Origin: a virus
DNA length: 45,696 nt
Strand: one strand, 5' to 3'
Virus record (IMG/VR): IMGVR_UViG_3300042988_000457
Coordinates: 1-45,696 of that record
Shown here in pieces: positions 7,901-28,714 of the stretch. The stretch's first letter is position 1. Each line of letters starts with the position of its first letter. Under the pieces are notes generated by a model that was not told the DNA's origin, did no database searches, and was given only the letters and a program-made list of their open reading frames with translations. The position numbers and the translations under genes were made by a program.

Positions 7901-8096
7901 CGGATTGCTGAATGTTTTGAGCCTGTAATTGAACAGGAACATTTGTAACCTGATTAAGCCCAAATTGAGGGTCACGCAAATTAAATTGCAAGTCGGTAGC
8001 ACTACCAACCACCACTAGGGTTAGCAAAATCAGAATAGTTACAAAAATCTTTTTCACTTTATTAGAATTGTTAATGCTTTTGGCAAAGGAAATCAA
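4950..8096 (-). CDS. Long tail fibre / adhesin-like protein with signal peptide
   Basis: A 1048-residue Asn/Thr-rich protein. It starts with a signal-peptide-like segment (KIFVTILILLTLVVVGSA), then many repeats of the form PVAATNQFATTNY and TNGFVTASITNG. A block containing TNDTTWFISQA and ALTNGYLRLVP occurs twice, around residues 235 and 655, which shows internal duplication. The C-terminal third has NNVASGAYSFTAGARNYTVNNGTFALGYNA and an FVWSG/QFLIKAAGG segment, typical of the YadA-like head repeats used in trimeric adhesins and many phage fibres. It probably forms a trimeric receptor-binding fibre. The signal peptide is unusual for a virion protein. Confidence 0.75.
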   Translation of the reverse strand: MISFAKSINNSNKVKKIFVTILILLTLVVVGSATDLQFNLRDPQFGLNQVTNVPVQLQAQNIQQSGAVTLLPWKLTQYTDTNGVTTFTNIYGSSVAGFYHFTITVPNTSKRVDGNVWIQSTNLGVVSASSVDLVVGAPTYPAGTWAWSAYASDIRYAGGSNLLSSYVTIGQLNNASNTLQLQIFASTNGFLPIATNIAYWVYSNNPAGYLSQIPVAATNLFLTSVPIGATNKFVTTNDTTWFISQANQIALTNGYLRLVPVAATNQFATTNYAASLVQATNGFVTASITNGLATTNYVNSATNGFVTASITNGVVFNNRLLSASNSIVALIPSTNGFITAANIPIVSTNQFATTNYVIQARIPAQTNSLILYFTNESTVLNQDVVNFYSTITDVDGPYSYQFNAKKIVSINGGQSGASYLSEFNYTGLGGEFTYETLNGTGTGDAALGYSHNLASTNISGLDARFAVGVGTFYGLGGQWGASYELLTKKRSSYWTTNQLGVFTHPFTIDGDGGTSLGDNPESEHTKDWKSVPWVRIRGSSDSTRPQFQLEGSMRPFSGSLTNGAFYSDGTNVWLIQSGVNSKIATLGISNNFIGGLYVNGTSVLTNSASTNGFLSTADTNSIKLWVGSAIAGSNYLSEVPVASTNKFVLTNDTTWFISQASQVALTNGYLRLVPTAATNQFLLTNGYAAGLVSGAAITNALVTNSVFSGDGFSITNLQFTNLSYASLVQITNLLGSGYIQQLNGFGTNTTLKFAGITNSYILNGTNSGGYYTNAVSVTATNFYVSAIGNASGVIRFPNGDTIAESTTGGGSGGETGIAIGLSNGVPLYEQYSFVAGAYNDIAAQAGFVIWGASIAGGTRNSIEVGGSGRGNAAFIAGGSNNVASGAYSFTAGARNYTVNNGTFALGYNAAAQYAGSFVWSGFEPTSTQFADTSTNQFLIKAAGGMGINTNNPANYALNIAGIGNAFDWRVRGVGVLTSNSIVASYMATNVVSGIRITNSIITGASITNPVIVSPTIVSALTTNIAVIFGNGSTNTLYFTNGILYNITP

Positions 8097-8097
8097 G

Positions 8098-9345
8098 TTA
8101 AATTACTGCGCCGATATATTGCCAATTTGTTGGGTCGCCATTTGGAGCAACTGTTTTGAACGCAGGCTTATTTGCTTTGAAAACATATTGACCGCGATAC
8201 TTGAATGTGCCTGTGCCTGTATCAAGAGTTTTTGTCAGGTATCCGCTTGCGCCTGAATCGTCATAAACCATATCGCCGGGATAAAAGAATTGTCCAGAAA
8301 GGCTGTCGGCTGTCCATTTTCCGCGATAAATCAGCGGATTTGCCAAATAGCCGCCATTTGCATTTGCGTATGACGGAAAGCGATTTATTAAGTTTCCAAC
8401 TTGCAATTGGCTAAATCCATGGTCAAAACCAACGCTATTGCAAACGTAAGTTGACGTATCAGGGTTAAGCGATATTTGCAAGTCCATTCCGACAACCGCT
8501 AAAGGAATGAAGGTGTTTCCATAAAACGACTCAAGAGAATTTGGAAACAAATAATCCATCGTTGCAAAATTTGTAGTGGCTGACGGCTGTGTTTTTACGC
8601 ATCTAGCCCAAAGATTGATAGCAACCCCAAAATCTACGTCGTCAATTATCTCCGCGTAAAAAGCAACCCAAATGCCTGTTGGATTTTCTCCGTCAACTCC
8701 CATTTCCTTTCCAACCATGTCAGGCAATAGAAAGGAGTCATAATAAAGCAAATTGTGAGTATCATCCCTTCCGCTAATCAAAGTATCTTCGTCAAGCGAA
8801 AGCGTTACCGTGTTTGAATTTTCAACAAGCTCTTTAGAAGTAATTGGAGAAAAAAGAGTAGAATACTGATAGCCCGACTCTAAAGCAGTCCAAGTATCAC
8901 CAATCAAAATGCAATCAGTTTCAAAGTTGCCTACATTTTCAAGGTCGTCGTTGTAGGCATTATAATTTGGCCCGCCATAAGTTGAATCGTTATTGGACGC
9001 ATCCTTATAGCCATTTTTCCAATAGCGCGAGCGCACACTAATAAGCCCCGTGCGAATTTGAAACTTTAATGCGTTTTCGCCAATCTGATAAACTTGCAAT
9101 GGCAATATAGTCGGGTTTTGTTCTGACAATGGCGCACCTCCCGCTTTAACCCTACGAATCTTCGCTACGTCAGATTGCAATTTCGACAAGGCATTAGTGG
9201 CCGAAAATTGATTATCAGAATCGCGCTTATCCTTAATCCATTGCTTTGAAACCATGCCGGAATCACGCACCGAGCCGATAATAGACGACGACTCATTACG
9301 AGTTGCTCGTTTAGCTCTACTGATTGGCGTAGTGATAGTTGGCAT
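8098..9345 (-). CDS. Distal tail structural protein with carbohydrate-binding-like C-terminus
   Basis: A 415-residue protein in the tail block. The N-terminal 90 residues are helical and charged; the middle is strand-rich. The last 90 residues hold FFYPGDMVYDDSG and later YRGQYVFKAN...PTNWQYIG, a pattern like the small carbohydrate-binding modules (type 5/12) found at the tip of phage tail proteins. It lies two bases from the upstream gene and one base from the fibre gene. It may be a baseplate or tip protein that binds cell-surface glycans. Family not recognised as a whole. Confidence 0.55.
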   Translation of the reverse strand: MPTITTPISRAKRATRNESSSIIGSVRDSGMVSKQWIKDKRDSDNQFSATNALSKLQSDVAKIRRVKAGGAPLSEQNPTILPLQVYQIGENALKFQIRTGLISVRSRYWKNGYKDASNNDSTYGGPNYNAYNDDLENVGNFETDCILIGDTWTALESGYQYSTLFSPITSKELVENSNTVTLSLDEDTLISGRDDTHNLLYYDSFLLPDMVGKEMGVDGENPTGIWVAFYAEIIDDVDFGVAINLWARCVKTQPSATTNFATMDYLFPNSLESFYGNTFIPLAVVGMDLQISLNPDTSTYVCNSVGFDHGFSQLQVGNLINRFPSYANANGGYLANPLIYRGKWTADSLSGQFFYPGDMVYDDSGASGYLTKTLDTGTGTFKYRGQYVFKANKPAFKTVAPNGDPTNWQYIGAVI

Positions 9346-10679: not shown

Positions 10680-11174
10680 TCACTTGATAAGCACGGGGTT
10701 GCTAATCATCTGTCCAGCTTCGCTAGTAGCAACCAAGCGCACAAATTGACCTTTAGTAACTTTGGTTTTGTCCAAAGCGCGGCTAGTCTGCCCTTCAATC
10801 GGCTTCCACACAGAAGATTCTTTCACGCCGTCAGAAACTTCCCATTGCAAAGTAGGCTCAATTTCAGAACTAATTTCTGCCACTAATTCATCTTCGCCTT
10901 TTTTGAACACAGGCGGATAAGATGTTTTAGGCTCGCAGGCGGTAGCAATCTTAACCAAGACTTCATGCGGAAATCCAAAGCCGTTACCAAATGCTTTTAC
11001 AAAAGTAGCTTGTTGCGAAATCTGAATATGGCGCATCCAACGTGCGTTATTAGCATCGGCAAATGGCACAGTTTGTTGCATCGTCGGAAAACCAAATTGA
11101 CGGTCAACAAGTTTTCCTGTCATCGTCACAATGCCGTCCTTAACCGTTACCGTTGTATCAATAATAGTTTTCAT
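10680..11174 (-). CDS. Tail-region protein with Ig-like C-terminus
   Basis: A 164-residue protein that starts in an ATGA overlap with the tape measure stop. The first 85 residues contain a VKDGIVTMTGKLV hairpin and the second half reads like an Ig-like domain (LQWEVSDG...WKPIEGQTS...VRLVATSEAGQMISNPV), as found on phage tail surfaces. Probably a minor tail protein; exact role unknown. Confidence 0.55.
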   Translation of the reverse strand: MKTIIDTTVTVKDGIVTMTGKLVDRQFGFPTMQQTVPFADANNARWMRHIQISQQATFVKAFGNGFGFPHEVLVKIATACEPKTSYPPVFKKGEDELVAEISSEIEPTLQWEVSDGVKESSVWKPIEGQTSRALDKTKVTKGQFVRLVATSEAGQMISNPVLIK

Positions 11175-12703
11175 GCGTTGCTAGTCATCAAATTCATTCC
11201 AAAAGGATTGCTGCTTCCGCCGCCTGCTCCCATAGCTTTAGCTATAAATTTTACAGCATCGGCGGTATCCTTCGTATTCTTGGCAGTCTGTTGGGCGTAA
11301 TTGTTTGTGCCGCCACCAACAACTAGGCCCATCTTTTCCCATGACGAAGCGGGAAGTTGTTTCATGTAAGATTGCGGAGTTGGAACGCCACCGCCTGCAT
11401 TTCCGCCAAAAGCATTTCCGGCGACTCTTTCTGCCAAATCAGCAACGGATTGCGACGAATCAATAATGTCTTGCAAAATCTTGTCAGTATCAAATCCTCC
11501 AATGCCACCAAGTCCGGGGACTTTAGAAAGCAAGTTGAGTGCTTTAGCGATTACAAAAGCAATGCTATCAGCAATCACTTTCATGCCATTAGCAAAGCCA
11601 GCTATCACCAATTCAATGACTCCGACTACGTTATTAAGCGCAATGAATAGCAGATTAAATGCACCAGCGACACCAGCGATAAAATCCGTCTTGCCTAGAC
11701 TCTCAAGAAAAGCATTCATGTTTTGAGCAAATGCCATGAAAGCAGGCGACATTGCATTAGCAACAATGTTCCAAATCGCTTGAAGATTTTTACCTAAAAT
11801 CGCAAATTCCCATCCAACGCCAGTCAATTCCTTGTTGGTTTTAGCCATCGTGTCGTTAGCGAATTGCAATTTAGGCGCAAGATATTCCAATGCTTTACCA
11901 AAGCGGATTACTTCTAATTCATGCACGCCTAAAATCTCTGCTAGGTTTTGGCGTTTAGTTGTAAAGCCTACGCCTAGTCCGCTCATTAGCGACTTCGCAT
12001 ACAGCTTGCGAGCATCATCGTAAGCCTGCGTAGTTTTCTTGACGGCGTTAATTAGCGACGTAAAAGCCATTCCAGCAGCTTTGATAAGCACAAAGTTTCT
12101 GACATAGCTTTCAGAGCCAAGCATTCCTTTGCCAGATTTTCCTCTGCCGATGTTTTCAAATGCCCTAGCACCGATAAATGGATTGAAGAAAGTCGCCAAT
12201 CCAGCAACGACATATTCCTTAATAGTGCCACCTTGCGGCTTATTGGCATCATTGCGCTTGTTGGTTGAAAAATCTTCCATTGCCAATTTAGCAAGGTTGT
12301 TTTCCATTTCGGAGAAGTTGACTTTAGGAATGCTGCCGCCTTGACGGCCAAGCAATTCCATCGCCTCAAATTTTCCAGCTTGTTTGCCGCCTAGATTTTC
12401 CTTACCAGCCTTAATGGCATCGTTCCAAAAATCTTGCATTTCTTTCAAGCGAGACTTGCCCCAAGCGTCAAAGATATTGAATGACTTTAGCTTTTTCTCT
12501 GCGCCTTTAGCAAATGAGCCTGCCGCCTTTTCGCCGTCGCCTTCAATCTGACTCAATTCAGATTGTCCCGCGCCTAGCCATTCGGCAAAATCAATCTTGC
12601 CACCCGTGCCGCTACCAATTCCGCCAACCTTTTTAAGCAAGCCGTCTAACGCAGAGTTAATTTGCTCTGCGCCTTCAAGTTGAAGATTTAAGACGTAATT
12701 CAT
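11171..12703 (-). CDS. Tape measure protein
   Basis: A 510-residue protein located directly after the tail chaperones, the usual site of the tape measure. It has an N-terminal MNYVLNLQLEGAEQINSALDG segment, long helices, several hydrophobic Gly/Ala-rich stretches (residues 290-400: AFNLLFIALNNVVGVIELV and neighbours) and a Gly-rich tail ending with NNYAQQTAKNTKDTADAVKFI, typical of tape measure C-termini. At about 1.5 Angstrom per residue it would set a tail near 75 nm. It overlaps the frameshift product upstream and the next gene by ATGA. Confidence 0.8.
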   Translation of the reverse strand: MNYVLNLQLEGAEQINSALDGLLKKVGGIGSGTGGKIDFAEWLGAGQSELSQIEGDGEKAAGSFAKGAEKKLKSFNIFDAWGKSRLKEMQDFWNDAIKAGKENLGGKQAGKFEAMELLGRQGGSIPKVNFSEMENNLAKLAMEDFSTNKRNDANKPQGGTIKEYVVAGLATFFNPFIGARAFENIGRGKSGKGMLGSESYVRNFVLIKAAGMAFTSLINAVKKTTQAYDDARKLYAKSLMSGLGVGFTTKRQNLAEILGVHELEVIRFGKALEYLAPKLQFANDTMAKTNKELTGVGWEFAILGKNLQAIWNIVANAMSPAFMAFAQNMNAFLESLGKTDFIAGVAGAFNLLFIALNNVVGVIELVIAGFANGMKVIADSIAFVIAKALNLLSKVPGLGGIGGFDTDKILQDIIDSSQSVADLAERVAGNAFGGNAGGGVPTPQSYMKQLPASSWEKMGLVVGGGTNNYAQQTAKNTKDTADAVKFIAKAMGAGGGSSNPFGMNLMTSNA

Positions 12704-13938: not shown

Positions 13939-14445
13939 TTATACGACTTGCGAGACATTACTGCCATTTTGATAAACTGGCAACCTTAATTGTGTGCCAA
14001 TCCAAATTGAACATTTGAAAGCGTCAATGTTGAAGCCTTCGTCTTTACCCCATCTTCCTAAACCGATATAGTCAGGAACTTCATCGGTTACAGGGTCAAA
14101 GCGGATAAGGCGCAATACGTCGCGCATTTCTTCTGCTAAATCGAATAGCGGCCTGCCACCGCCTACACCATCGGAAAGATTGCCGGAACGAATAGCGTCT
14201 AGCCCTCTACCGCGTGAAATCATTACGTCAATATAGCGATTTACGCGTCCGGTAATATCACCGCCTGCAAAATTGACTCGCGCTTTTTCGTCCTCAAATA
14301 GAATAGCAATCTTGCAAGTCCCCGGCTTGTTCAAAAGGATTTCCCAAGCATGGACGAAATCAGATGCAATATACGCCTTCGCACCATCAATCTTGCCATC
14401 TAGGGCTTGCTGGATGGCATTACATTGATTTTTAATGCTACTCAT
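13939..14445 (-). CDS. Putative tail terminator / tail completion protein
   Basis: A 168-residue protein with RYIDVMISRGRGLDAIRSGNL, RPLFDLAEEMRDVLRLIRFDP and PDYIGLGRW, the sequence style of tail terminator proteins (lambda gpU-like), which cap the tail tube. It overlaps the connector gene upstream by ATGA and precedes the tail tube candidate, as in many siphoviruses. Moderate confidence because no catalytic motif exists to confirm it. Confidence 0.6.
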   Translation of the reverse strand: MSSIKNQCNAIQQALDGKIDGAKAYIASDFVHAWEILLNKPGTCKIAILFEDEKARVNFAGGDITGRVNRYIDVMISRGRGLDAIRSGNLSDGVGGGRPLFDLAEEMRDVLRLIRFDPVTDEVPDYIGLGRWGKDEGFNIDAFKCSIWIGTQLRLPVYQNGSNVSQVV

Positions 14446-15575
14446 AGACTGTTAGCCCCGAACAACACGCTCTTTTGCGTCCAAGCTGATACGGGCGAGA
14501 AGCTGCGCTTGTAAGTGCCGTCTAAAGTCTTTTCGCCTTCGCCAATGGCATAAAGCATATCACGCCAACATTTTGCGTTAGCGGTAAAGTTGTTCTTTTC
14601 GTCAGGCGCAAAGCGACGTTGCAATAGGCTGTAAGCGACAATATCCGCACAAGCTTGACGGACTTTTGCAGGCACAAAGCTGCTACCACCTTGCAATACG
14701 ACTAGTTGACCTACGACATAATCTGACCCACCATCCACGATAGACGGCGTTCCTGAAACCACATTAGCATCTGCCAATTGTCCAGATTCGTCAGAATAAT
14801 TCTGCGTCGTGTAAGTGACGGCTAAATTTAATCCCGTCCCCTTTTGCTGATAAATGTCAGCCCAATTCCAATTGCAATATAAATCCTCGTTACCAGTCCA
14901 AGTGTAATTTTCTTGGACAGTTGTTAGCGGATTGATATAGCGCAAGTAAGCTGGATACTGATTTGAGTCAGGGGCAACTTGATAATTTCCAGATTCTACC
15001 ACCGCGATTTCTGTAACCGCGCCATTAGCGTCAACGTCGCGGATTTGAATAATCGCTACCGTGCCAGTTTGCGCTAATGGCATCGGATAAATCGTCGAAA
15101 GATAACCGTTAATTTCTTCGGTTACATTGGTAACGATTTGATTATACGTCGTCAATACGTCGCCCGAAAATTCTCCTAGCGGCGGTTGTGCATCGTCGCA
15201 AGCCTGAATCAATGCAATAATTCCACCCACTTTAGTCTTGACGACATCGCTAGTCGTATATGGCTGCGGAATCAATTTTGCCGTAGAAATGTATGCTTCG
15301 GGGTCGTAACCGTAAGCGCGAAGGATTTGAGGCGCAGGATTGCCGCCCATACCGGGAATTGCTATTCCTGACACGCAAGGCGCAGGCGCAGGCGGACTAG
15401 GCACTAAGCCTCCCCAATCGCCACTAGGTAATCCGCTAGTATTAAATGCCTGCCAAGTTGTAGCTCCTAGACAGACAAAATAATTATTCGGCGTAGTATC
15501 TACGTCAAATCCGGCATCGCCCTTTCCGCCTGAAAGTTCGCCATTCGGATTGCCATGAAAATTAAAGATTGCCAT
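14442..15575 (-). CDS. Head-tail connector, DUF1320/gp36-like, with large insert
   Basis: A 377-residue protein. The ATG at 15575 is chosen over a TTG at 15584. The C-terminal part (VRQACADIVAYSLLQRRFAPDEKNNF then KCWRDMLYAIGEGEKTL) matches the helical pattern of gp36-like connector proteins of Mu-type heads, in which an aromatic/Arg helix is followed by an Ala-Ile-Gly-Glu-Gly turn. An N-terminal part (GNPNGELSGGKGDAGFDVDTTPNNYF) resembles short beta-rich capsid add-on domains. The family is normally near 140 residues, so about 200 residues are extra. Connector function is inferred. Confidence 0.5.
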   Translation of the reverse strand: MAIFNFHGNPNGELSGGKGDAGFDVDTTPNNYFVCLGATTWQAFNTSGLPSGDWGGLVPSPPAPAPCVSGIAIPGMGGNPAPQILRAYGYDPEAYISTAKLIPQPYTTSDVVKTKVGGIIALIQACDDAQPPLGEFSGDVLTTYNQIVTNVTEEINGYLSTIYPMPLAQTGTVAIIQIRDVDANGAVTEIAVVESGNYQVAPDSNQYPAYLRYINPLTTVQENYTWTGNEDLYCNWNWADIYQQKGTGLNLAVTYTTQNYSDESGQLADANVVSGTPSIVDGGSDYVVGQLVVLQGGSSFVPAKVRQACADIVAYSLLQRRFAPDEKNNFTANAKCWRDMLYAIGEGEKTLDGTYKRSFSPVSAWTQKSVLFGANSL

Positions 15576-15576
15576 A

Positions 15577-16644
15577 TCATTCAATCCTAGTGACTTTGAC
15601 GTAGCTGCCTGCCTTTAATGTATTAGTCCCTGTTGCAGTAGCAGAGCAAGACATGAAAAGATTTATTGGCGCATTAGTTAAGCGCAAAACAATAATGTGA
15701 TTAGCGGTAGAAGATTGCGCCGTGCCGCTTACAGGACGGTTTTCAGAAATTGGACGATTGCCTAAAAATGTGTCCAGCCCGCTAGTATTAGTTGCAAGAA
15801 TAAATCCCGGCGTGGGTGCGCCTTGCTCAAAGCCACTTGACCATCCAGCATAGCCGTTGCCATTAAATGCGCGGCTAGTAAATACATAGCCCATGTTCAC
15901 GGCGTTGGTAATCCAAGTGATGATATACGGCCTATCTGTGGATTGATTGCCCCTAGCAATAGCATTGACTTCAATCTCATACATTCCGTTATTCGTTATC
16001 GGCGCAACAATAGAATAACCAATGTGATTTGTAATGACTATGTTTGTTACCGTAAAATCATTGGTAGCGTAAAAAAATCTTGGCGTGAAGGTTGCCAAAG
16101 AAAATTGATTTGTAGCCGCAACTGGAATCGAAGTCAAAAACTGATTCGTAACGCTTGATGGAATCGTCAGGTTTGTCAATCCAGAGCCGTTGCCGCCATA
16201 GATTCCGCTGATTGAAAAGTTGCCAGACTCAAGTCTTGCCGACCCACCAATTGTTAAAAAATTAAAAACACTATCATCTGCGGTTATGTAATTTGTGTAG
16301 CTATTTGCCCTGTCAAAAAAACCTATTTTCCCAAATTGGTCAACCGAGCCTGAGATAAAATCAAACGAACCATTCGTCACCACGCCCATCCCCATAACGA
16401 TGCCTTGCACCGAATTAGTAGTTGTCCACGGAGCATTAGTGATAGCCGTATAAGAAAAGTTAGTAGCACCGCCGCCGCTACCGCCGCCAATCGCCGCTAA
16501 AGCATTAGCCGCATTAGTCTGACGCAGAAAGTTTGTCCCTAGAAAATCAGACGAAGGATAGACACTGAAAGCACTAAAGCAATTACTAGCAGCCCCCAAG
16601 TAAATGAAGGCTGCTAGTATAATTTTGCATAGAGAGGCTTGCAC
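15577..16644 (-). CDS. Fibre-like protein with signal peptide, related to the long fibre
   Basis: A 355-residue Asn/Thr/Ser-rich protein. Residues 1-25 form a Sec signal peptide (ILAAFIYLGAASNCFSA). After it come LGTNFLRQTNAANALAAIGG and repeats such as SIPVAATNQF, nearly identical in style to the 1048-residue fibre. The C-terminal 150 residues are strand-rich (YEIEVNAIARGNQS, HIIVLRLTNAPINLF), like a trimeric C1q/TNF-like knob. It lies between capsid decoration and connector genes, so it may be a capsid or neck fibre rather than a tail-tip fibre. Role inferred. Confidence 0.6.
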   Translation of the reverse strand: MQASLCKIILAAFIYLGAASNCFSAFSVYPSSDFLGTNFLRQTNAANALAAIGGGSGGGATNFSYTAITNAPWTTTNSVQGIVMGMGVVTNGSFDFISGSVDQFGKIGFFDRANSYTNYITADDSVFNFLTIGGSARLESGNFSISGIYGGNGSGLTNLTIPSSVTNQFLTSIPVAATNQFSLATFTPRFFYATNDFTVTNIVITNHIGYSIVAPITNNGMYEIEVNAIARGNQSTDRPYIITWITNAVNMGYVFTSRAFNGNGYAGWSSGFEQGAPTPGFILATNTSGLDTFLGNRPISENRPVSGTAQSSTANHIIVLRLTNAPINLFMSCSATATGTNTLKAGSYVKVTRIE

Positions 16645-18935: not shown

Positions 18936-19940
18936 TTATTTAGAGGCGCGTTCCTTCATTTCTTCAAGCGTAGTGCCGTAAGTAGCTGTCCAAGATTTTT
19001 CAACCAAGTCCAAGCCACGAACGCCTTCAAAGTCGTTCTTTTTGCCTTCGCCCTTGTAAATCGCTTTCGCTTCGGTGGGAAGGATAGTGGAGTTTTTGGC
19101 AAGCACCTTGAGAAGCGGCAAGTCGAGTTTCGCCAAATCGTCAGACTTGTAAGCAACGCCTTCGTCGCTATAAGCCACGCGACCTTCGGATTGCATCTTG
19201 GCAATCACGCTGGATTTTTCGCTTTCAACCAAAGCGGCTTGCGTTTCGGTAGCGCGTTTCTGCAAATCGCCCAAGTCGGCTTGCACTTTTTCGATAGTCG
19301 GAGCAGCTTTAGAAAGCGTTTCGACGGTTTTAACGAGGTCGGCAACCGTCTTGGCAAGTGAATCTTGCGAAGCGGTAATAGACTCAAGCTTTTTCAATGC
19401 TTCTTGTTCCATAAGTTTAGTTTTTTCAGATTTTTTCTTTTCTTCGTCAGAAATTTCAGTATGCGTTTTGCAATCTTTATCGTTGCAATGCTCATTCGGC
19501 TTATCGAATTTAACCACCGAGAAAAATGATTCAGGGTTATTCGGCAAATCCACTACGGAAATCTCTTTAAGCAGCAATTCGGTAATTTGATTGCCGACAC
19601 GCTTAATCAGCTTTCCACCGATTGAAAAGCCTTTAAGGACGCCTTCCCTAATCTTTTGGACAGTGTTTTTGTCCACGATTTTAGCGGTAAAGTGCGTTCT
19701 ACCTTCATCATCCACAAAAGCGGAAATAGGGCGACCCGCAGCAATCGGCTGGTGCATTTCGCGCACTGTGCCGCATTGGAGGTAGGAAGGAATAGCTTTA
19801 CGCATCGCTTCCGCCGTCACAACTTCGCCATCTGCGTCAATCGCTTCCGTAGAAGCAATTCCAGAAACCATGAGAGTGCCGTCATCGGCTGCGTCAAACT
19901 TCTCAATCTTTCCGTAAAATTGCAGATTCGTTTTGTCCAT
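18936..19940 (-). CDS. Prohead protease fused to scaffold
   Basis: A 334-residue protein. The first 140 residues are an S78-type prohead protease: VSGIASTEAIDADGEVV, REMHQP with the catalytic His at residue 63, and LKGFSIGGK with the likely catalytic Ser at residue 106. A long Glu/Lys-rich coiled coil follows (residues 165-250), then a C-terminal helical part ending in VEKSWTATYGTTLEEMKE. Fusing protease and scaffold explains why no separate scaffold gene precedes the capsid gene. The product should cleave scaffold and self during head maturation. First gene of a minus-strand unit. Confidence 0.85.
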   Translation of the reverse strand: MDKTNLQFYGKIEKFDAADDGTLMVSGIASTEAIDADGEVVTAEAMRKAIPSYLQCGTVREMHQPIAAGRPISAFVDDEGRTHFTAKIVDKNTVQKIREGVLKGFSIGGKLIKRVGNQITELLLKEISVVDLPNNPESFFSVVKFDKPNEHCNDKDCKTHTEISDEEKKKSEKTKLMEQEALKKLESITASQDSLAKTVADLVKTVETLSKAAPTIEKVQADLGDLQKRATETQAALVESEKSSVIAKMQSEGRVAYSDEGVAYKSDDLAKLDLPLLKVLAKNSTILPTEAKAIYKGEGKKNDFEGVRGLDLVEKSWTATYGTTLEEMKERASK

Positions 19941-21847: not shown

Positions 21848-22325
21848 AATACTCGTCAACTATCCCTAGCTGTCTTTCCTCTGCAAAAGGCATGAGCCTG
21901 CTTCCATCTTTTACGATTGGATAATAGGGGCGATAAGGGACGCCGCGTCCGAATTGATGCTTGTCGGCATATGGCGAAGTATTAGTCATTGACGCGCTAT
22001 TATCTGTCACTTCATAGACGAATGAATATTTCAAGTGTGCGCCTGTGCCACCTTCGTATTTCGTCCCTTTAGCGCGATTTCTTTCTGCCTCACTTCTTTC
22101 AAGCGTTGCAAATTGACGGCCAATAATTCGCTTATACGCATCGCTTACTAGCAATTCGTCGTGCCACGGACGCATTGAGCCATTAGCCATTTCACCAAAG
22201 TTAGATTGCGTGAGAATGTCAATATCTTGTAGCATTTTAGCCAAAAGCTGGCGACGACTTTGCGGCGAGACTTTTGACTTTAGGCTCTTGAATAATGGCG
22301 TCCAATCGTCACGCAGGATAACCAT
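21837..22325 (-). CDS. Phage virion morphogenesis protein (Mu gpG-like)
   Basis: A 162-residue protein. The end (LKYSFVYEVTDNSASMTNTSPYADKHQFG then VPYRPYYPI) is the signature of virion morphogenesis / tail completion proteins of the Mu gpG type, which act at the head-tail joint. The ATG at 22325 is chosen because it gives a short overlap with the portal; an ATG at 22376 would overlap by 68 bases. It lies directly behind a Mu gp29-like portal, which matches Mu-like head gene order. Confidence 0.7.
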   Translation of the reverse strand: MVILRDDWTPLFKSLKSKVSPQSRRQLLAKMLQDIDILTQSNFGEMANGSMRPWHDELLVSDAYKRIIGRQFATLERSEAERNRAKGTKYEGGTGAHLKYSFVYEVTDNSASMTNTSPYADKHQFGRGVPYRPYYPIVKDGSRLMPFAEERQLGIVDEYFKS

Positions 22326-23865
22326 AGCGTTTTTTATCTTGAATAGATTTTCCCTGTTTATTGTCGCCGCCTGCATTTTCAGCAGGGTCAAATACTTCTA
22401 GCTTGATGCCAAAGGTATTCGTCAATTGCTGTTCTTCCGTCTTGGCTACGCGAATACCAGATAGATAAAGCGATTGGAATGTCCTAGCCATTAAAGCTTG
22501 CTGCGTAGGATTGATGCCGCCACGCACAGCACGGCAACGTCCTTTGTAGCCATTGATGCGAAGATAAGGCTCAAAGATTTGCTTCCATTGCATATCACAG
22601 AAAGCGCGCTTATCAAATAATGCCCATTCTTCTTTTACGTCGCTATGCAAGTCTGCCACGCCGCTACCACCCATCATGCCGCTGCCTTTAGACGACGTAG
22701 AAAGCGTTTGACCAAGAATAGCTTTAGTTTTTTGCGTGTCGCAACATTCGATAGTCTTGACATACGCATCTGCCATGCCACTTACTTGGACTTCTTTCAA
22801 TTCAATCTTCGCTTGTGGCGGCACGATTAAAGCATTGATTTTCGTCGCTTGATTAAATGCTTTGGTTAGCAAATCAAAGACGTTCTTATTCTGCGTCTGC
22901 GCGTAAGCGACGGCAAATGGCGAGCCATAGCGTTCCATACCACGCATCATCCAATCGCGCAAGTTAGCCGAATAAAACCACCACGGAATAAGGCTGCGTA
23001 GTGTGCCGCCAAAATTCTCACGCATTGACGCCGTAGCTACGTTAGCAGAATGCAGCACATGGCGCGTAGGGTCAGGCTTATAGCAATTAGCCATTGTCCA
23101 ATCAATCAGCCCATTGCCATAAGTGGAATAAAAGCGCAAATCTGCATGCCAATCGTTAGGATTCCAAATAAGCGCAGGATTTTGATTGACATTGTTGTAA
23201 GTGCCTAGCGATGAAATTCCAGCGACATCTTGATTAGGCATTGCGCCTGTATTCGTCAAAATGCCTTGTGGCACTACGCCGCCTTGCGGTGCAATACCAG
23301 TAGAATTGACATTCCAATAAGCGACTTTATAGGTAAAAAGCGGATAGGGAATAGGATGCAGCTTTTTAAGGCGATAATTGACAGGATGCTTGTATTTGTA
23401 TCTTTCCGCGCCGTCAACAGGCTCATAAATCTTTTCTGCACCAGCAATCGGCCAAATATGACCATTAGCCAAGTGTAATGAGCCTTCGCGCCAATTGTCG
23501 CAATTCACAATCATGTCCATAATCACTTCCGAAGCAATTACGTCGTCAGGATTATTCTTGTCCACAGGCTCAATAGATTCATTTTGCCCCATGAAGCTCA
23601 TAATTCGCTTACCCATTTCGGCTTGAATATGCGAATCGTTTTCAATCATGTCGCGGAATAAGGCGAATAGATAATAAGGCTCGCCACGTTCAGAAGTCTT
23701 GATTGCATTCTGAATATCAGCAAGATTTACGCTATTTCCGAATTGCGGAGCATCCCCAAGCCCTGATAATTTAGCGATAATCTCCGTAGGCAATACCATT
23801 GAGCCAGCCGAAATCAGCTTTTCAGCAAGTCTATTTTTGAAATTTTCTAGCATGGTGTTATTCAT
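22309..23865 (-). CDS. Portal protein, DUF935 (Mu gp29-like)
   Basis: A 518-residue protein. Diagnostic stretches are LFRDMIENDSHIQAEMGKRI near residue 70, WWFYSANLRDWMMRGMERYGSPFAVAYA (residues 290-320) and KTKAILGQTLSTSSKGSG followed by VADLHSDVKEEWALFDKRAF. These are the DUF935 portal hallmarks, including the LGQTLST loop and the HSDV segment. The portal is the DNA entry ring of the head. An Asn/Gly/Pro-rich insert near residues 190-240 is longer than usual. It sits between the gpG-like gene and the second plus-strand island. Confidence 0.85.
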   Translation of the reverse strand: MNNTMLENFKNRLAEKLISAGSMVLPTEIIAKLSGLGDAPQFGNSVNLADIQNAIKTSERGEPYYLFALFRDMIENDSHIQAEMGKRIMSFMGQNESIEPVDKNNPDDVIASEVIMDMIVNCDNWREGSLHLANGHIWPIAGAEKIYEPVDGAERYKYKHPVNYRLKKLHPIPYPLFTYKVAYWNVNSTGIAPQGGVVPQGILTNTGAMPNQDVAGISSLGTYNNVNQNPALIWNPNDWHADLRFYSTYGNGLIDWTMANCYKPDPTRHVLHSANVATASMRENFGGTLRSLIPWWFYSANLRDWMMRGMERYGSPFAVAYAQTQNKNVFDLLTKAFNQATKINALIVPPQAKIELKEVQVSGMADAYVKTIECCDTQKTKAILGQTLSTSSKGSGMMGGSGVADLHSDVKEEWALFDKRAFCDMQWKQIFEPYLRINGYKGRCRAVRGGINPTQQALMARTFQSLYLSGIRVAKTEEQQLTNTFGIKLEVFDPAENAGGDNKQGKSIQDKKRYGYPA

Positions 23866-23967: not shown

Positions 23968-24156
23968 ATGAATGACAATATTACCAACCAACAAATCGCC
24001 AACTGCACCGGAGCATTAGCCAACGAGTTCAATCTTGCGGACATTGAAAAGATTGAGCGGATACTGAAAAGTCATTTTAATTCTGTCGCTCAAACGAACG
24101 AGCAAAAGCACGATGCTGACGAATACTTTAAGCAGCAGTTTGAGCAATCAAAATGA
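23968..24156 (+). CDS. Small helical protein with DADEYF motif
   Basis: A 62-residue protein. The ATG at 23968 is chosen for a GGAGG seven bases upstream. It is helical and ends KHDADEYFKQQFEQSK, almost the same as residues 8-23 of the minus-strand protein at 31623-31979 (NDADEYFRQQFSQSNE). That motif may be a shared binding peptide. First gene of the second plus-strand island. Function unknown. Confidence 0.65.
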   Translation: MNDNITNQQIANCTGALANEFNLADIEKIERILKSHFNSVAQTNEQKHDADEYFKQQFEQSK

Positions 24157-24350
24157 AAAACCTACCCCAACTTCTAAAATCTCTTGAACGGCTTGGATTT
24201 CAGATTAAAATATCAGAAGGGACAAAGCGTAAATTGTATCCGCCTGATAAAAATATGCCGTTTTACTCGCTTCATGTGGGAGAAAAAAGTTTGCATCCAC
24301 TACGTCGCTTCGCGGCTAAGAATTGGAATTTAGATTTAGAAAGCCTATGA
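24153..24350 (+). CDS. Small HicA-like hypothetical protein
   Basis: A 65-residue protein (LLKSLERLGFQIKISEGTKRKLYPPDK then FYSLHVGEKSLHPLRRFAAK). The helix, basic strand and a final helix with Leu-x-x-Leu-Arg-Arg-Phe recall the double-stranded-RNA-binding-like fold of HicA toxins, but the catalytic His of HicA is not in the usual place. Common small phage protein; toxin function is not supported. Confidence 0.6.
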   Translation: MKNLPQLLKSLERLGFQIKISEGTKRKLYPPDKNMPFYSLHVGEKSLHPLRRFAAKNWNLDLESL

Positions 24351-24475
24351 AAGAAATCCTAAAGCTAATAATCTGCGTATTTTTATTCTGGATTTGCTTT
24401 TTTTCAATCTGGCTAGTATTGACGCCGATATTGATTGTTGCAAATTGGTGCGATGATTTTGAGGAAAATAAATGA
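24347..24475 (+). CDS. Single-span membrane miniprotein
   Basis: A 42-residue protein with one hydrophobic segment (LIICVFLFWICFFSIWLVL) and an acidic end (CDDFEENK). ATGA overlaps on both sides support translation. Function unknown; it could be a membrane or superinfection-exclusion factor, but there is no evidence. Confidence 0.6.
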   Translation: MKEILKLIICVFLFWICFFSIWLVLTPILIVANWCDDFEENK

Positions 24476-24726
24476 AAGAAATACCTGTTTCAGAAATTAA
24501 AGAGCTAGACGTTTTGTTTGTGCCAGAGCTTTCCGGCGCACAGATTGTTCTAAAGCAGCATGGACAGCTAAAGCTAGTGCCGTCTTATTTTCTTGCCGAA
24601 AGTGATGACGACTCTTTTAGCGAGACGCTATCTAAAGCATCGTTTAGAAATCTGTCCTTTATCAATTCCGACAAAGCCGTAAAATGCGGCGAATTGAAAA
24701 AGCATTGGAAGATTGTCAAAGCCTAA
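24472..24726 (+). CDS. Small hypothetical protein ending second island
   Basis: An 84-residue protein (VSEIKELDVLFVPELSGAQIVL then acidic AESDDDSFSETLSK). The stop overlaps the terminase stop by 11 bases as TCA-N5-TAA, the same spacing as at 21837-21847. Function unknown. Confidence 0.6.
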   Translation: MKEIPVSEIKELDVLFVPELSGAQIVLKQHGQLKLVPSYFLAESDDDSFSETLSKASFRNLSFINSDKAVKCGELKKHWKIVKA

Positions 24727-27247
24727 ATGTCCTAGCATCCTGAATCAAATACTGCGATTGCTCCGCTTCAATCAATTCTGCTTCTACGTCAATATAATCA
24801 GGCGTGACTTTTTCTGATATAGATTGGAAATTGCCCATTTTGATTGGCTTGGCGGTTGATAGCAAGTTGGTGTAGGCCATAACTAGGCTGTTACGGCAGT
24901 TATGGACTAGCACCCCGTTAGCAAAGTATTCGTGGCAATCTTCTACTTCAAGGTTAAATACTTTTTCTATACGACCTTCGTAATTTTCCACTACATTCGC
25001 GTGAGCAAGTTTTGGTTTTTGCGTATTTGTATGCCTTGAATGTTTGTCCGCAAATTTGGCAATTTTTATCAATCCAGTTCCACTCGTTTCGTCGTTGCTG
25101 CGCGACCTTGCAATTGACATGGCAGAATTTGACTGTGTTATGCGAAGTGTAGACTTCAAAATCCTTTCCGCAGTATTGACAGACAAATTTTTTATTTGTG
25201 AAGCTTTTTCCGAGCGAAGTTGAATAATTTCGCTTTGAAAATTCTCGCGCTTCTTCGGTGTGATGCCATTCAACGGCGAGCTTTCTAATTGATGCAAGAT
25301 GAGCCAAATGCTTTTCGGTAAGCCTTCCAGCGTCATCGGCGTGTTTTTCTCCGTGCTGCTTTGCTGTAAGCATTTCGAGATTGGAAATGTCGTTGTTAAG
25401 CGTGTTTTTGTCTTTGTGGTGTATGTGGCATCCTTTAGGGATTTCTGAAAGTCCGTGATGATGCTTGTAAATTTCTTGGTGAAGCGAGAGGCTTTTCCCA
25501 GGAGACTTGATTTCACTTGTGAAATAGTATTTACGCAAGTGTGAGCGAGTCGAGTTTGGATAGCGGCGGAATTTTCTGCCGTTGAATACGATGGTTTCAG
25601 ATAGTTGAGACATATCGAAACTTTATCACCATTTCGCAAGCTGTCAAGCCTAGTCCATCCTTTTTTGTATTGCCAAATTGGATGATTGCAAGTTCCGATA
25701 AGCGATTTTCCATTGTCAAACAATAATTGTCGCGTTTTTTTTACGCCTGTGCTTCCGGCTGAAAGCACTTTACGCAATCCTTTTCTAGTCCAAACCTTGT
25801 CGCCAACTTTAATTTTTTCAATTGGCGTTTCTCCAAGTTCTGTCAATACCATTGTTCCGGCCACAAAGCAGGATTCTAGCTGGTCGTCCCCCCCGTTTTG
25901 GTTTTCAGAATCAAAATTGATTTTTTGAATATCATTCGGCTTCTTTTCATCGCATTGCGCCATCTGAATTTGCTGAATAAGTTCTGTGCAATTCTTGTGG
26001 ATAAAAAGTCTAGGCTGAATTTGCTTCTGAATATCTCCAAACATTTCTGCCATTTGCGCCCAAGCATTCACGCGGTCAATATGCACGGCTGTAAGCATCA
26101 ATCCGCGCTCCATGTATTCAGTCGCTACCGTGCCGCCGTCTTTGTCCACGCGAAAGCAATCCTTGCCAGCCGCGATAAATTCCAAGTCCTCTGGTATCAA
26201 TCCGCGTAGTGCTAGAATGTCCTTAATGTTCGCTGCGTGCTGTTCAATCGTCGTATTAGGCTCGCCATAGCTATCCGTGATAAAGACGCGTCCTGACTCA
26301 TCCTCGCAACAAAGCGTGAATGCCGTAGGATGGCTAAAGCCGTAGTCTAATCCCGCAAACCATCTTACAGTCGGGCATTTCTTTACGTCCAAATCAACTG
26401 TCTCATTCGGATACACATGGACGGTATCGTAGAAGTTGCTGAAAAAGCTACCCGCCATAAATTCCCAAGAGCCTTCAAGCCAAGCCATGCGTTGCCATCC
26501 GACTAGCGTTTGCAAAAATGCTTTGTATTCAGGATTGACAAATTTATTGTCGTCAACGGTTGAATGAATGTAGCGAGTATCTTTTTCCGTTCCATTTTTC
26601 CACGGGTCAACAAATTCTTTTTTATGCTCAATATGACTGATGCCGCCCGGATTTGTGTCCATGTATGCGCGGGGACGCCAATCAGTCTTATTTGTGCGTA
26701 AGCAAGACATGATATTTGTAATCTTGCTAGCGGAAAGCTGATTACACTCCATGATATAGATTAAGTCGTATTCAAGCCCCAAATACTTATCAATGTCTTT
26801 TTCGTCTTTGAAGTTTCCAAGAATGACTTGCGAGCCGTTGGCAAAATCAATTGTCTGCGCTTGCTCGCGGTAAGTATGCGGAAGATTGAATAGCAGCTTT
26901 TTACGGAAGTCAGCAATCTGTTCTTTATTTGCCCTACCGACTTTACGCAATGCCAATACTTTTAAGCCCTTAATTCGTTGGCAATCGTCGCAGAAAATTT
27001 GTGTAAGAATTGTCGTGCTTTTGCCCGACCCACGCCCGCCACCCGCAAGAATCTTTTTAGGCCCGTTTGGTAAATCACATTGACGACAAAGCGCGGCAAT
27101 CTCCAATTGCTTTTTCTGCATCGTCACGCCCGCCATCAAAAAGTTTTCGACTTGCTCTTTGCAGCATCCGGCTTCTTTAGCCATTTGACCAAATTTGATA
27201 ATCAAATCTAGTTGCTCTTGTTCGGCTTTAGAATATTTTTGAGCCAT
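24716..27247 (-). CDS. terL: Terminase large subunit interrupted by an intein
   Basis: An 843-residue precursor; the ATG at 27247 is used rather than a TTG at 27253. ATPase domain: Walker A GGGRGSGKS at residues 69-77, Walker B DLIYIME at 161-167. Nuclease domain: WFAGLDYGFSHPT near residue 285 and GGDDQLES just before residue 460. An intein occupies residues 460-783, between GGDDQLES and CRNSLVMAY. Removing it leaves a 519-residue terminase of normal size. The insertion point lies at the third acidic cluster of the RNase H-like nuclease, a conserved site as inteins prefer. The enzyme cuts and pumps DNA into the prohead. Splicing must occur before packaging. Confidence 0.85.
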   Translation of the reverse strand: MAQKYSKAEQEQLDLIIKFGQMAKEAGCCKEQVENFLMAGVTMQKKQLEIAALCRQCDLPNGPKKILAGGGRGSGKSTTILTQIFCDDCQRIKGLKVLALRKVGRANKEQIADFRKKLLFNLPHTYREQAQTIDFANGSQVILGNFKDEKDIDKYLGLEYDLIYIMECNQLSASKITNIMSCLRTNKTDWRPRAYMDTNPGGISHIEHKKEFVDPWKNGTEKDTRYIHSTVDDNKFVNPEYKAFLQTLVGWQRMAWLEGSWEFMAGSFFSNFYDTVHVYPNETVDLDVKKCPTVRWFAGLDYGFSHPTAFTLCCEDESGRVFITDSYGEPNTTIEQHAANIKDILALRGLIPEDLEFIAAGKDCFRVDKDGGTVATEYMERGLMLTAVHIDRVNAWAQMAEMFGDIQKQIQPRLFIHKNCTELIQQIQMAQCDEKKPNDIQKINFDSENQNGGDDQLESCFVAGTMVLTELGETPIEKIKVGDKVWTRKGLRKVLSAGSTGVKKTRQLLFDNGKSLIGTCNHPIWQYKKGWTRLDSLRNGDKVSICLNYLKPSYSTAENSAAIQTRLAHTCVNTISQVKSSLLGKASRFTKKFTSIITDFQKSLKDATYTTKTKTRLTTTFPISKCLQQSSTEKNTPMTLEGLPKSIWLILHQLESSPLNGITPKKRENFQSEIIQLRSEKASQIKNLSVNTAERILKSTLRITQSNSAMSIARSRSNDETSGTGLIKIAKFADKHSRHTNTQKPKLAHANVVENYEGRIEKVFNLEVEDCHEYFANGVLVHNCRNSLVMAYTNLLSTAKPIKMGNFQSISEKVTPDYIDVEAELIEAEQSQYLIQDARTFRL
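24899..25870 (-). mobile_element. Intein in terminase large subunit (324 residues)
   Basis: The N-terminal end CFVAGTMVLTELGETPIEKI has the intein block A pattern, with Cys1. GTCNHPIWQY matches block B (the TxxH His). The C-terminal end has NYEGRIEKVFNLEVEDCHEYF (block F) and ANGVLVHN followed by Cys (block G, His-Asn-Cys). All splicing residues are present, so it should be active. The 220 codons between positions 25613 and 24954 in this frame show no DOD/LAGLIDADG motif and read as Ser/Thr/Lys-rich sequence. That DNA instead carries an HNH gene in the -1 frame. Confidence 0.85.
24954..25613 (-). CDS. HNH homing endonuclease nested out of frame in the intein
   Basis: A 219-residue protein on the same strand as the terminase, in the -1 frame. 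It has a NUMOD-like start (FNGRKFRRYPNSTRSHLR), the HNH core GCHIHHKDKNTLNNDISNLEML (His65/His66, Asp68, Asn73/Asn74, Asn78), and two C-terminal zinc-finger-like parts (CQYCGKDF...FCHVNC and CQICGQTF...TCSREC). Its ATG at 25613 is preceded by an in-frame TAA, so it is not a simple extension of the intein. Its last codons overlap the intein block F coding. Standalone translation needs an internal start with only a weak ribosome site. It probably cuts intein-less terminase alleles. Confidence 0.85.
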   Translation of the reverse strand: MSQLSETIVFNGRKFRRYPNSTRSHLRKYYFTSEIKSPGKSLSLHQEIYKHHHGLSEIPKGCHIHHKDKNTLNNDISNLEMLTAKQHGEKHADDAGRLTEKHLAHLASIRKLAVEWHHTEEAREFSKRNYSTSLGKSFTNKKFVCQYCGKDFEVYTSHNTVKFCHVNCKVAQQRRNEWNWIDKNCQICGQTFKAYKYAKTKTCSRECSGKLRRSYRKSI

Positions 27248-27249
27248 AA

Positions 27250-27429
27250 TCAATCAACTTCGTAAAGCTGTTCAATCGGAATTTGAATGTAATGGGCAAG
27301 TGGCGTTCCCCAAAAAGATTCAAGACACACAGTTACTAGTTGCAATTTTCTGCCAGTCATTTCAGAAATTCGATAAATGTGTCCGTTCTGGTTTTTAACC
27401 CTAGCTCCGTATTTTATTTCTGTAATCAT
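27250..27429 (-). CDS. Small hypothetical protein upstream of terminase
   Basis: A 59-residue protein (MITEIKYGARVKNQNGHIYRIS, then CLESFWGTPLAHYIQIPIEQL). The sequence looks like a small SH3-like barrel. Its stop lies two bases before the terminase ATG, so the two are likely co-translated. Function unknown; a position before the large terminase makes a packaging accessory possible. Confidence 0.6.
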   Translation of the reverse strand: MITEIKYGARVKNQNGHIYRISEMTGRKLQLVTVCLESFWGTPLAHYIQIPIEQLYEVD

Positions 27430-27442
27430 TTGTCATTAAATT

Positions 27443-27481
27443 AAAAATGCGCCAGCCAATCTCCGAATAATTGACTGACGC
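27443..27481 (-). terminator. Intrinsic terminator/attenuator before the terminase unit
   Basis: On the minus strand GCGTCAGTCAAT (27481-27470) pairs with ATTGGCTGGCGC (27460-27449) over 12 positions with G-U wobbles, followed by ATTTTTAATTT. This is a usable rho-independent terminator for the small genes upstream, or an attenuator in the leader of the 27250 gene. Confidence 0.6.
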
Positions 27482-27544
27482 ACCCCACAAACACCACCAT
27501 CCACAACATTTGGACAGTAATGCAAAGTCAAATTATTAGCAAAT

Positions 27545-27688
27545 CTATTTTTTCATCGGAGGAATAAATGCCAATTTCGACAATGCGCCAAGCGTTTCGC
27601 TATACGAATAACCGCAATGCTTATAGATTTTAGCCATCGCTATTACAGCCTTTAATTCCTGTTTTTTAATTTTATCTTTTGTTTTCAT
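27545..27688 (-). CDS. Tiny basic hypothetical protein
   Basis: A 47-residue protein (MKTKDKIKKQELKAVIAMAK, then YSETLGALSKLAFIPP). It lies four bases after the metallopeptidase gene, same strand. Function unknown. Confidence 0.45.
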   Translation of the reverse strand: MKTKDKIKKQELKAVIAMAKIYKHCGYSYSETLGALSKLAFIPPMKK

Positions 27689-27692
27689 GTGT

Positions 27693-27953
27693 TTATTTTG
27701 TTTGTTTTCTATAACCATTGTTCCAAATCAATTTCGCTAAAGATTTTTCTAGCTTGATGATATTTCGCTCGCTTGCTGACGGAATAGCCAAGTGAAGCCA
27801 TTCATGGCATAATGTTGACAGATATTCTCGCTTTGACTGTCTAGGGTCAATTGTAATGGTGCAATCCTCTGTATCAGCCAAGCCTACGCAATCTTCAAGC
27901 TTTCGCCTTATGACGCGGAATTTTACTGACGGATTGACGCGAGCGCGAATCAT
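27693..27953 (-). CDS. Zincin-like metallopeptidase (HEWLH)
   Basis: An 86-residue protein with CTITIDPRQSKREYLSTLCHEWLHLAIPSASERNI. HEWLH fits the HExxH zinc motif, with a downstream Glu in ASERN that could be the third ligand. This small zincin pattern is seen in phage peptidases of unknown substrate and in the ImmA/IrrE group. It overlaps the exonuclease gene by ATGA. Confidence 0.7.
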   Translation of the reverse strand: MIRARVNPSVKFRVIRRKLEDCVGLADTEDCTITIDPRQSKREYLSTLCHEWLHLAIPSASERNIIKLEKSLAKLIWNNGYRKQTK

Positions 27954-28714
27954 TTTGCATTATCGGTATCGTTCTTTTTTGCTTCCTTATACGCTTCCAT
28001 TGAGCTTCCGCTAATAGTATAAATCTTTCCACAGCACTTGCATTTCATTTGATATTGTTTCGTTCCTGCGGCTGTTACGCGAGTCATATTTATTTTAACC
28101 GCCTCGCTAGCACAATGCGGACAAGTCCATTTACCGCCGTTATTCAATACTCCTGCATGAGATTTTACAGGCGATAGCAACACAATCTTTTTCCAGACTT
28201 TTTCAAGCACCACTACATCATGCTTGCAATAGCGGCTCATTTTAGCTAATGCTTTTGGGCATTGCTTCAAGCAAATGTCTTTCCACAAATCAAAATTTGT
28301 ATGCAGCTTTTTTCCGACTCCAAAGAATTGCGCCAAGTAATCTAGCTTATTGGAATTGAACATGAATTTGCGTCTAGCCCATTGCAGTGTATCGGCTGTC
28401 TTGTAAGTCGGAAATACAATTCCATGAAGGGCGCACCTTGTAGCGAAAAATGGCAAGTCAAAATTATCTCCGTTGTGCGCTACCAATTCGTCCGCCTGAT
28501 TTGCTATGTATGTGAATTTTTTTAGAAGTGATTTGTCGTCCTGATTTTTGTCCCATGTAAGAATTTCTGCCTTGCCCCCCTCCCATTTGTAGCCGATACA
28601 GATTATTTTTCTCTCTTTCAATATGCTTTCCGGCGTCACTGAAACCTTGTATCCAATTCTCCAATTTAAGCAGATATTAGGCGATGTTTCAATGTCCCAA
28701 AATAATCGTTTCAT
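27950..28714 (-). CDS. DEDD-type 3'-5' exonuclease with C-terminal zinc ribbon
   Basis: A 254-residue protein. Motif I is WDIET (Asp7, Glu9), motif II is HNGDNFDLPF (Asn81-Asp86) and motif III is YCKHD (Tyr162, Asp166), so all four acidic residues are present. A Cys pair at 198/201 and more Cys near 225-228 form a zinc ribbon. The set resembles YprB-like RNase H-fold exonucleases of phages. It could degrade DNA or process recombination intermediates. It overlaps the metallopeptidase gene. Confidence 0.75.
   Translation of the reverse strand: MKRLFWDIETSPNICLNWRIGYKVSVTPESILKERKIICIGYKWEGGKAEILTWDKNQDDKSLLKKFTYIANQADELVAHNGDNFDLPFFATRCALHGIVFPTYKTADTLQWARRKFMFNSNKLDYLAQFFGVGKKLHTNFDLWKDICLKQCPKALAKMSRYCKHDVVVLEKVWKKIVLLSPVKSHAGVLNNGGKWTCPHCASEAVKINMTRVTAAGTKQYQMKCKCCGKIYTISGSSMEAYKEAKKNDTDNAK

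Follow-up and report, generated by a model that had tools for sequence, protein, structure and literature searches.

An HNH endonuclease gene overprinted out of frame on the linker of a phage terminase intein

In the usual descriptions, an intein and its homing endonuclease either form an in-frame fusion or are encoded by split genes. Here, we examine an arrangement found in the terminase gene (terL) of a viral DNA of 45,696 nucleotides (IMG/VR record IMGVR_UViG_3300042988_000457, positions 1 to 45,696; this whole stretch is termed the window). The terL gene carries an intein whose homing-endonuclease module is, very probably, a complete HNH gene with expression of its own, written out of frame over the Hint-domain linker. 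The same nesting is observed in 83 other loci and is due neither to chance nor to decay; it represents a conserved solution for lodging a presumably mobile gene in an intein. We also consider it rather likely that the window belongs to a widespread intein lineage of phages and prophages, in which the overprinted homing endonuclease has its own promoter (leaderless or led by a Shine-Dalgarno sequence, SD) written in synonymous positions, its start and stop are fixed by intein motifs, and the linker is a meaningless filler that is kept stop-free.

The terminase intein and the gene nested in it

An earlier note, made from the letters of this DNA alone, had proposed an intein with intact splice blocks at 24899-25870 that lacks an in-frame endonuclease, and a 219-residue HNH protein encoded in its -1 frame at 24954-25613. 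Both proposals hold, and so do their coordinates. The intein, on the minus strand, is confirmed by the presence of every splicing residue and by a confidently predicted Hint fold, and it would be expected to splice. It has the features of a class 1 type intein, namely a C1 nucleophile, a TxxH motif in block B, a C-terminal HN and a +1 cysteine. Residues T60, H63, N324 and C325 are all present in the window, and among 62 relatives C1, H63 and N324 are invariant, while T60 and C325 are nearly so. In the TerL open reading frame (ORF), whose first ATG is at 27247, Pfam recognises Terminase_3 (E 4e-15), Hint_2 (1e-8) and Intein_splicing (7e-8), in agreement with the PHROGs. The intein is inserted near the C-terminal end of the TerL nuclease domain, at what is by sequence the third acidic motif.

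Structure prediction gives a consistent picture. In AlphaFold2 models, run on the nested alignments, both Hint parts reach a pLDDT (predicted local distance difference test) of 95-98, and the overprinted linker between them mostly remains at 44-60. Foldseek matches the intein model to the gp41-1, Ssp DnaB and Mtu RecA mini-inteins (E 2e-6 to 1e-3). A canonical bifunctional intein would carry its endonuclease in frame; here, the HNH_3 domain falls on the -1 ORF and the in-frame linker has no confident fold. Nor do the intein halves lie on separate ORFs, as they do in fractured genes and in 11 of the relatives presented below, since a single open ORF runs through both of them. An Rfam search of positions 24000-28000 returned no group I intron or other intron family, even at E values up to 1.

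The nested ORF runs from an ATG at nucleotide 258 of the intein to a TAA inside block F. It matches Pfam HNH_3 (E 2e-12) and phrog_15471 (E 2e-29), and its AlphaFold2 model has a mean pLDDT of 93.9. The best match in the PDB is the homing endonuclease I-HmuI (1u3e), both by sequence profile (E 7.6e-5) and by fold (Foldseek probability 0.99, E 0.016, local only). The catalytic H/N residues and the cysteines are invariant or nearly so in 52 sequences, H65, H66, N74, N78 and H87 being invariant. It had also been remarked that the last codons of the HNH gene encode block F and that its frame is closed just before the ATG, and this is indeed what we find: the stop codon is formed by a Phe-Asn pair of block F, and a TGA and a TAA, spelt by the intein G-D-K motif, stand directly upstream of the start. 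As both of these conserved intein motifs spell stops in the HNH frame, the ORF is bounded by them. Family-wide, the HNH stop often falls in block F/G dipeptides (Y-D, Y-N, V-E, F-D), the codons of which spell TGA or TAA in the -1 frame.

Table 1. Features of the terL locus in the window.
Feature	Position	Strand	Basis or remark
TerL ORF	24716-27253	-	845 aa; open through the intein
TerL N-extein, comprising the ATPase domain and the larger part of the nuclease domain	25871-27253	-	Pfam Terminase_3/Terminase_6N, PHROG terL
Intein, 324 residues (C1 ... H63 ... HN324, +1 Cys)	24899-25870	-	splicing residues, Foldseek
Hint N-terminal part, about residues 1-86	25613-25870	-	pLDDT about 97 up to residue 80
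Sigma70-like promoter candidate in intein coding sequence	25620-25647	-	10/12 matches: TTGACA (25647-25642), 16 nt, TG-preceded TAAAGT (25625-25620)
TGA and TAA closing the HNH frame upstream	25623-25628	-	spelt by intein G-D-K codons (GGT GAT AAA)
HNH endonuclease ORF, 219 aa, -1 frame of the intein	24954-25613	-	HNH_3 core and two four-cysteine zinc-finger-like motifs
In-frame intein linker overprinted by the HNH gene	25019-25612	-	pLDDT about 44-60 over most of residues 90-280; stop-free
Hint C-terminal part, blocks F and G, residues 285-324	24899-25018	-	pLDDT 93-98 from about residue 290; TIGR01443 intein_Cterm
HNH stop TAA	24954-24956	-	spelt by block F residues Phe-Asn (TTT AAC)
TerL C-extein (CRNSLVMAY...)	24716-24898	-	aligns with the uninterrupted site of L122 and L123

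Conservation of the nesting and selection on the two frames

At the DNA level, blastn against phages gave no matches, and protein searches were required. With either frame as query, tblastn found matches at the same place in the terminase genes of Tetrasphaera phage TJE1, Acinetobacter phage Highwayman, Rhodobacteraceae phage LS06-2018-MD07 and one gut phage; in all four, TerL reads open and the HNH keeps the relative frame that it has in the window. Together with profile-guided scans of IMG/VR and of the GTDB species genomes, this led to 121 loci, which were classed with Hint N- and C-block profiles. Counting the window, 84 of 122 loci are fully nested in the same -1 frame (intN, HNH and intC present, a single open frame holding the intein blocks) and 3 further ones are nested but only partly covered; as nested HNHs served as seeds for the search, the shares of the nested, split and free-standing classes are not population frequencies. 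The earlier note had called for a search of related terminase inteins for the same -1 frame HNH, and the 83 other loci also support its view that the linker is overprinted by a separate and presumably mobile gene.

The other classes are instructive. In three loci (L078, L083 and L088), the nesting makes use of the other alternative frame, with 0 stops there and 7-8 in the usual frame, and this is a separate overprinting solution. Eleven loci are split into distinct ORFs for TerL-IntN, HNH and IntC-TerL (L010, L041, L045, L066, L100-L103, L107, L110 and L111), and they probably encode trans-splicing terminases; their short IntC-TerL ORF often begins inside the end of the HNH gene. No intein was detected in 19 loci, and the sole in-frame HNH that was found (L116) resides in a ribonucleotide-reductase-like host protein, while the extein is nearly always TerL where it can be identified. 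The 87 same-frame loci are diverse, since they form 84 clusters at 90% HNH identity and still 49 at 50%. Their contigs come from metagenomes and from metagenome-assembled genomes (MAGs) labelled Bacteroides, Parabacteroides, Nitrospiraceae, Thermoplasmatales and Methanomethylophilaceae, among others. The family extends over phages and prophages from a range of bacteria, and over some archaeal MAGs. The HNH tree, with 19 label changes and few supported deep branches, is too deep to tell a single from a repeated origin of the nesting.

Some individual loci deserve a mention. In L052 and L082, the HNH relative is free-standing, directly downstream of an intein-free TerL whose insertion motif is uninterrupted (NDHSIDAVRYS, NNHCIDATRYALN), and it has its own promoter-like sites. 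In L044 (1284-3715), an apparently complete TerL precedes a nested HNH; the open frame in which this HNH lies terminates in a repeat of the TerL C-terminus (CDAMRYACMW), which suggests a partial duplication or an unusual insertion. The public annotations of TJE1 (L006, HQ225832) and of Highwayman (L007, OZ038341) list only TerL and leave the nested HNH unannotated; annotation pipelines overlook such genes.

The openness of both frames over the overlap, which the earlier note had pointed out, can be quantified. In the window, the intein frame contains 0 stops over the 219 HNH codons, when 3.2 are expected by codon permutation (P(0)=0.01) and 8.0 with uniform synonymous codons, a situation in which 0 of 300 trials were stop-free; the third frame contains 15 stops over the same codons. 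Across the 87 same-frame loci (16,059 HNH codons), there are again 0 intein-frame stops, against 183 expected by codon permutation or 401 with uniform synonymous codons, and split and free-standing relatives show stops at about the permuted expectation; because loci were classed as nested on the basis of their open intein frame, it is the expected number and the non-nested relatives that make the informative contrast. At the codon level, NTA before A or G is found in 0 of 261 cases in nested HNHs and in 95 of 157 in split and free-standing ones (p 4e-52), and NTG before A in 0 of 385 and 41 of 133, respectively (p 3e-27).

What is conserved differs between the two frames, and the statement that both are open needs to be qualified accordingly. 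In 21 related pairs, differences at HNH codon positions 1, 2 and 3 number 1245, 1062 and 2046. Since the third HNH position is the second codon position of the intein frame, the amino acids of the linker change freely, and the excess of third-position substitutions therefore indicates that the HNH is conserved as a protein and that the linker is only kept open. In 21 of 21 pairs, amino-acid identity is higher in the HNH than in the intein frame, the intein-frame identity of the linker is about equal to that of the unread third frame, and we detect no amino-acid constraint that would be proper to the linker. Non-nested pairs show a similar third-position excess. Statistically, then, the HNH frame is under protein conservation; in the intein frame the two ends are conserved, and what is maintained between them is only the absence of stops.

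Expression, mobility and alternative readings

The earlier note had left two possibilities for the translation of the HNH frame, its own start or some form of recoding, and the data favor the former. Among 68 loci, 69% have a sigma70-like promoter score above 7 within the 70 nt upstream of the HNH start, versus 27-28% in a null in which intein codons were resampled synonymously (p about 2e-10), and control windows located 75-600 nt upstream exceed this score at the null rate only. We considered that the intein motifs LDxL and GD/YND could by themselves create this promoter-likeness, and rejected that explanation, as the signal survived both the synonymous-codon null and the upstream control windows. 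The distances fall into clusters: the -10 box stops exactly 6 nt short of the HNH ATG in 11 loci, of which the window is one (2.9 expected), and in a second cluster it ends about 15-40 nt before. Translation signals are also enriched: in 72 single-ATG loci the mean SD energy is -4.6 kcal/mol, versus -2.2 for 1716 control ATGs (p 8e-7), and about 57% of these loci have an SD of -4 kcal/mol or better. The loci whose promoter abuts the start (n=13, near neighbours included) have a weaker SD (-1.8) than those whose promoter lies farther away (n=36, -5.6; p 0.005), and the former would look like the source of a leaderless message. Thus, the HNH is probably expressed independently, from its own predicted promoter. 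Slippery heptamers, for their part, are not enriched in the overlap (0.107 per locus versus 0.081 in controls).

As for mobility, the closest TerLs, L122 (76% identical) and L123 (67%), have no intein at the site of the window; their sequences (GGDDILEATRN and GDDYLENFRN) read on without a break where the window has LES^C...N^CRN. L122 (3-2609) does carry a different intein, located in the Walker A loop (GGGRG^P...HN^SGKS), whose LAGLIDADG-type sequence is in frame. Some pairs of loci are much closer in their mobile parts than in their exteins: L086 and L087 share 71% identity in the HNH and 74% in the Hint but 31% in the extein, and L008 and L098 share 63, 61 and 33%, respectively. Finally, L079 (3477-4127) has an in-frame nonsense codon in its HNH while its intein frame is still open, and is best read as an inactivated endonuclease in an intact intein. 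Empty sites, discordant pairs and this broken copy fit a homing cycle. In such a scheme, readthrough of the terL frame would give a TerL precursor in which the Hint halves fold together and the disordered filler linker loops out; the intein, given its motifs and predicted fold, would then splice itself out to release active TerL. A promoter hidden in the N-terminal codons of the intein would produce the HNH messenger, leaderless-like in the window and with an SD-led leader at other loci. The I-HmuI-like HNH, with its zinc-finger motifs, would cut intein-free terL, and repair of the break would copy the intein and the HNH gene together. Statistically, selection maintains the HNH protein sequence and, in the intein frame, only the stop-free state.

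Several observations weigh against this scheme. Promoters were scored with a hand-set sigma70 matrix, and few of the hosts are identified. In the window, the promoter-like site reaches only p=0.03 against synonymous recoding at a single locus, and the SD of the HNH is weak (-2.8). A consensus promoter scan of the window region gives 2 matches when shuffles give 5.1, so that the window site is not evidence on its own. The codon usage of the window HNH is unlike that of the other genes of the phage (log-odds -0.04, versus 0.09 for the intein frame of the same DNA). In a Mantel comparison, HNH, Hint and extein distances are all weakly correlated (Spearman 0.22-0.29), with no clear decoupling, and because of this the case for homing rests on individual pairs.

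Other explanations have to be weighed against these data. The nesting could derive from a normal in-frame HNH intein that was shifted by an indel or an assembly error, and in-frame HNH inteins do exist, as L116 testifies. This is what the earlier note had named as its possible undoing; yet the homologues found are out of frame in 83 other loci, spread over nearly as many HNH clusters, and the in-frame case lies in a different host protein. Moreover, the intein frame is stop-free throughout and terL continues in frame past the intein. An in-frame ancestor followed by an indel is thus refuted by the conserved architecture, and we give decay or artefact next to no chance. It is also exceedingly improbable that the HNH is a dead relic whose frame stays open merely through the constraint on the linker frame. 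The atypical codon usage of the window copy would agree with a relic, but the asymmetry between the frames is the reverse of the one it implies, as HNH third positions change most and HNH identity is the higher one in every pair, and the catalytic residues are invariant. The tie of the HNH to terL in most nested loci with an identified extein, and the position of free-standing relatives next to terS/terL (L011, L052, L082), could instead designate a packaging factor that works with TerL, like HK97 gp74, all the more so as HNH proteins beside terminases can participate in cos cleavage (discussed in PMC10448857). We find this role unlikely, because the nearest solved structure by sequence and fold is an intron homing endonuclease, because close TerL relatives do without the intein and L079 retains an intact intein with a broken HNH, and because the HNH lies between the Hint halves, the usual place of homing endonucleases in inteins.

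The remaining alternatives concern expression. As the HNH is in the -1 frame of the intein, a programmed -1 slip from the terL frame would lead into it and yield a TerL-IntN-HNH fusion, and the HNH ORF often begins some codons before its first conserved block, which would accommodate such an entry. Slippery heptamers are however barely above their control rate, HNH starts carry SD and promoter signals, and in the window the slip would have to occur after 25623, where there is no canonical heptamer; frameshifting is therefore very unlikely. That the HNH is translated only from the terL messenger, by internal initiation or coupling, with a coincidental promoter signal, is doubtful but a serious possibility, since the SDs present at more than half of the single-ATG loci would permit internal initiation. 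Against it stand the strong excess of promoters over the synonymous null, confined to the region directly upstream of the ATG, and the fact that the promoter-abutting loci mostly lack an SD. An HNH gene expressed on its own account, from within the intein, remains the explanation that we favor.

Relation to known systems and significance

Split inteins with a free-standing endonuclease gene between their halves, termed fractured genes, were reportedly described by Dassa et al. in 2009. The 11 split relatives resemble them, whereas the window and the 83 other loci differ in that the intein is in one open frame, presumably splicing in cis, with the endonuclease overprinted on it. The HNH shares its HNH_3 domain with I-HmuI, but I-HmuI lies in a group I intron, and no intron RNA was found around the nested HNH, which ends in zinc-finger-like Cys motifs. 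Several TerL inteins of mycobacteriophages splice, and two have endonuclease activity; these are located in the ATPase domain (Kelley et al. 2016, PMC5050341). They too are in a phage TerL, while the intein of the window lies towards the C-terminus of the nuclease domain and has an out-of-frame endonuclease.

The closest parallel is found in mycobacteriophage methylase genes, which contain out-of-frame HNH insertions, the ShiLan domain and Pacc40 gp60 (Arsenault et al. 2025, PMC11855218). As in ShiLan, the HNH ORF of the window is out of frame in a phage gene whose own frame is kept open. Unlike the window, where the HNH sits inside a terL intein with a complete Hint domain, ShiLan lacks a Hint or any other splicing domain and is considered to be retained in the protein. 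The route of translation was left open in that work, and the nested-intein family adds promoter and SD evidence as well as frame-resolved selection tests. For overlapping reading frames in actinobacteriophages, the same article cites Gosselin, Arsenault and Gogarten 2025 (bioRxiv 10.1101/2025.01.02.630785; actinobacteriophage inteins, 'non-canonical architecture') and Gorbalenya 1998 ('Non-canonical inteins'). Judging from the way in which these two works are cited, single out-of-frame endonucleases in inteins may already have been reported there. An intein that stays open while an apparently autonomous HNH gene is overprinted on it is best regarded as a variant form, alongside the known out-of-frame HNH insertions and split inteins.

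If the lineage is as widespread and as self-sufficient as we propose, this form would stand next to in-frame fusion and split genes as a third standard means by which a splicing element is joined to an endonuclease. It is recurrent and deeply diverged, and it indicates that an endonuclease can stay an autonomous gene, probably self-expressed, with the intein frame intact. The hidden promoters would suggest how concealed HNH endonucleases come to be expressed, a question raised in the literature, and this answer can be tested. The family is also a natural experiment in overlapping genes, one frame being conserved as a protein and the other only kept stop-free, for which same-frame-nested, other-frame-nested, split and free-standing relatives of the same protein provide the controls. 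In addition, inteins with a dispensable and unconstrained linker may interest protein-splicing engineers.

Outside of terL, several large ORFs of the structural region of the window (8098-9345, 11171-12703, 14442-15584 and 4950-8096 (-)) have no PHROG match at 1e-4, which places this phage far from described ones. Its recognisable genes include the portal (22309-23865), a head maturation protease-like gene (18936-19940) and an exonuclease (27950-28714).

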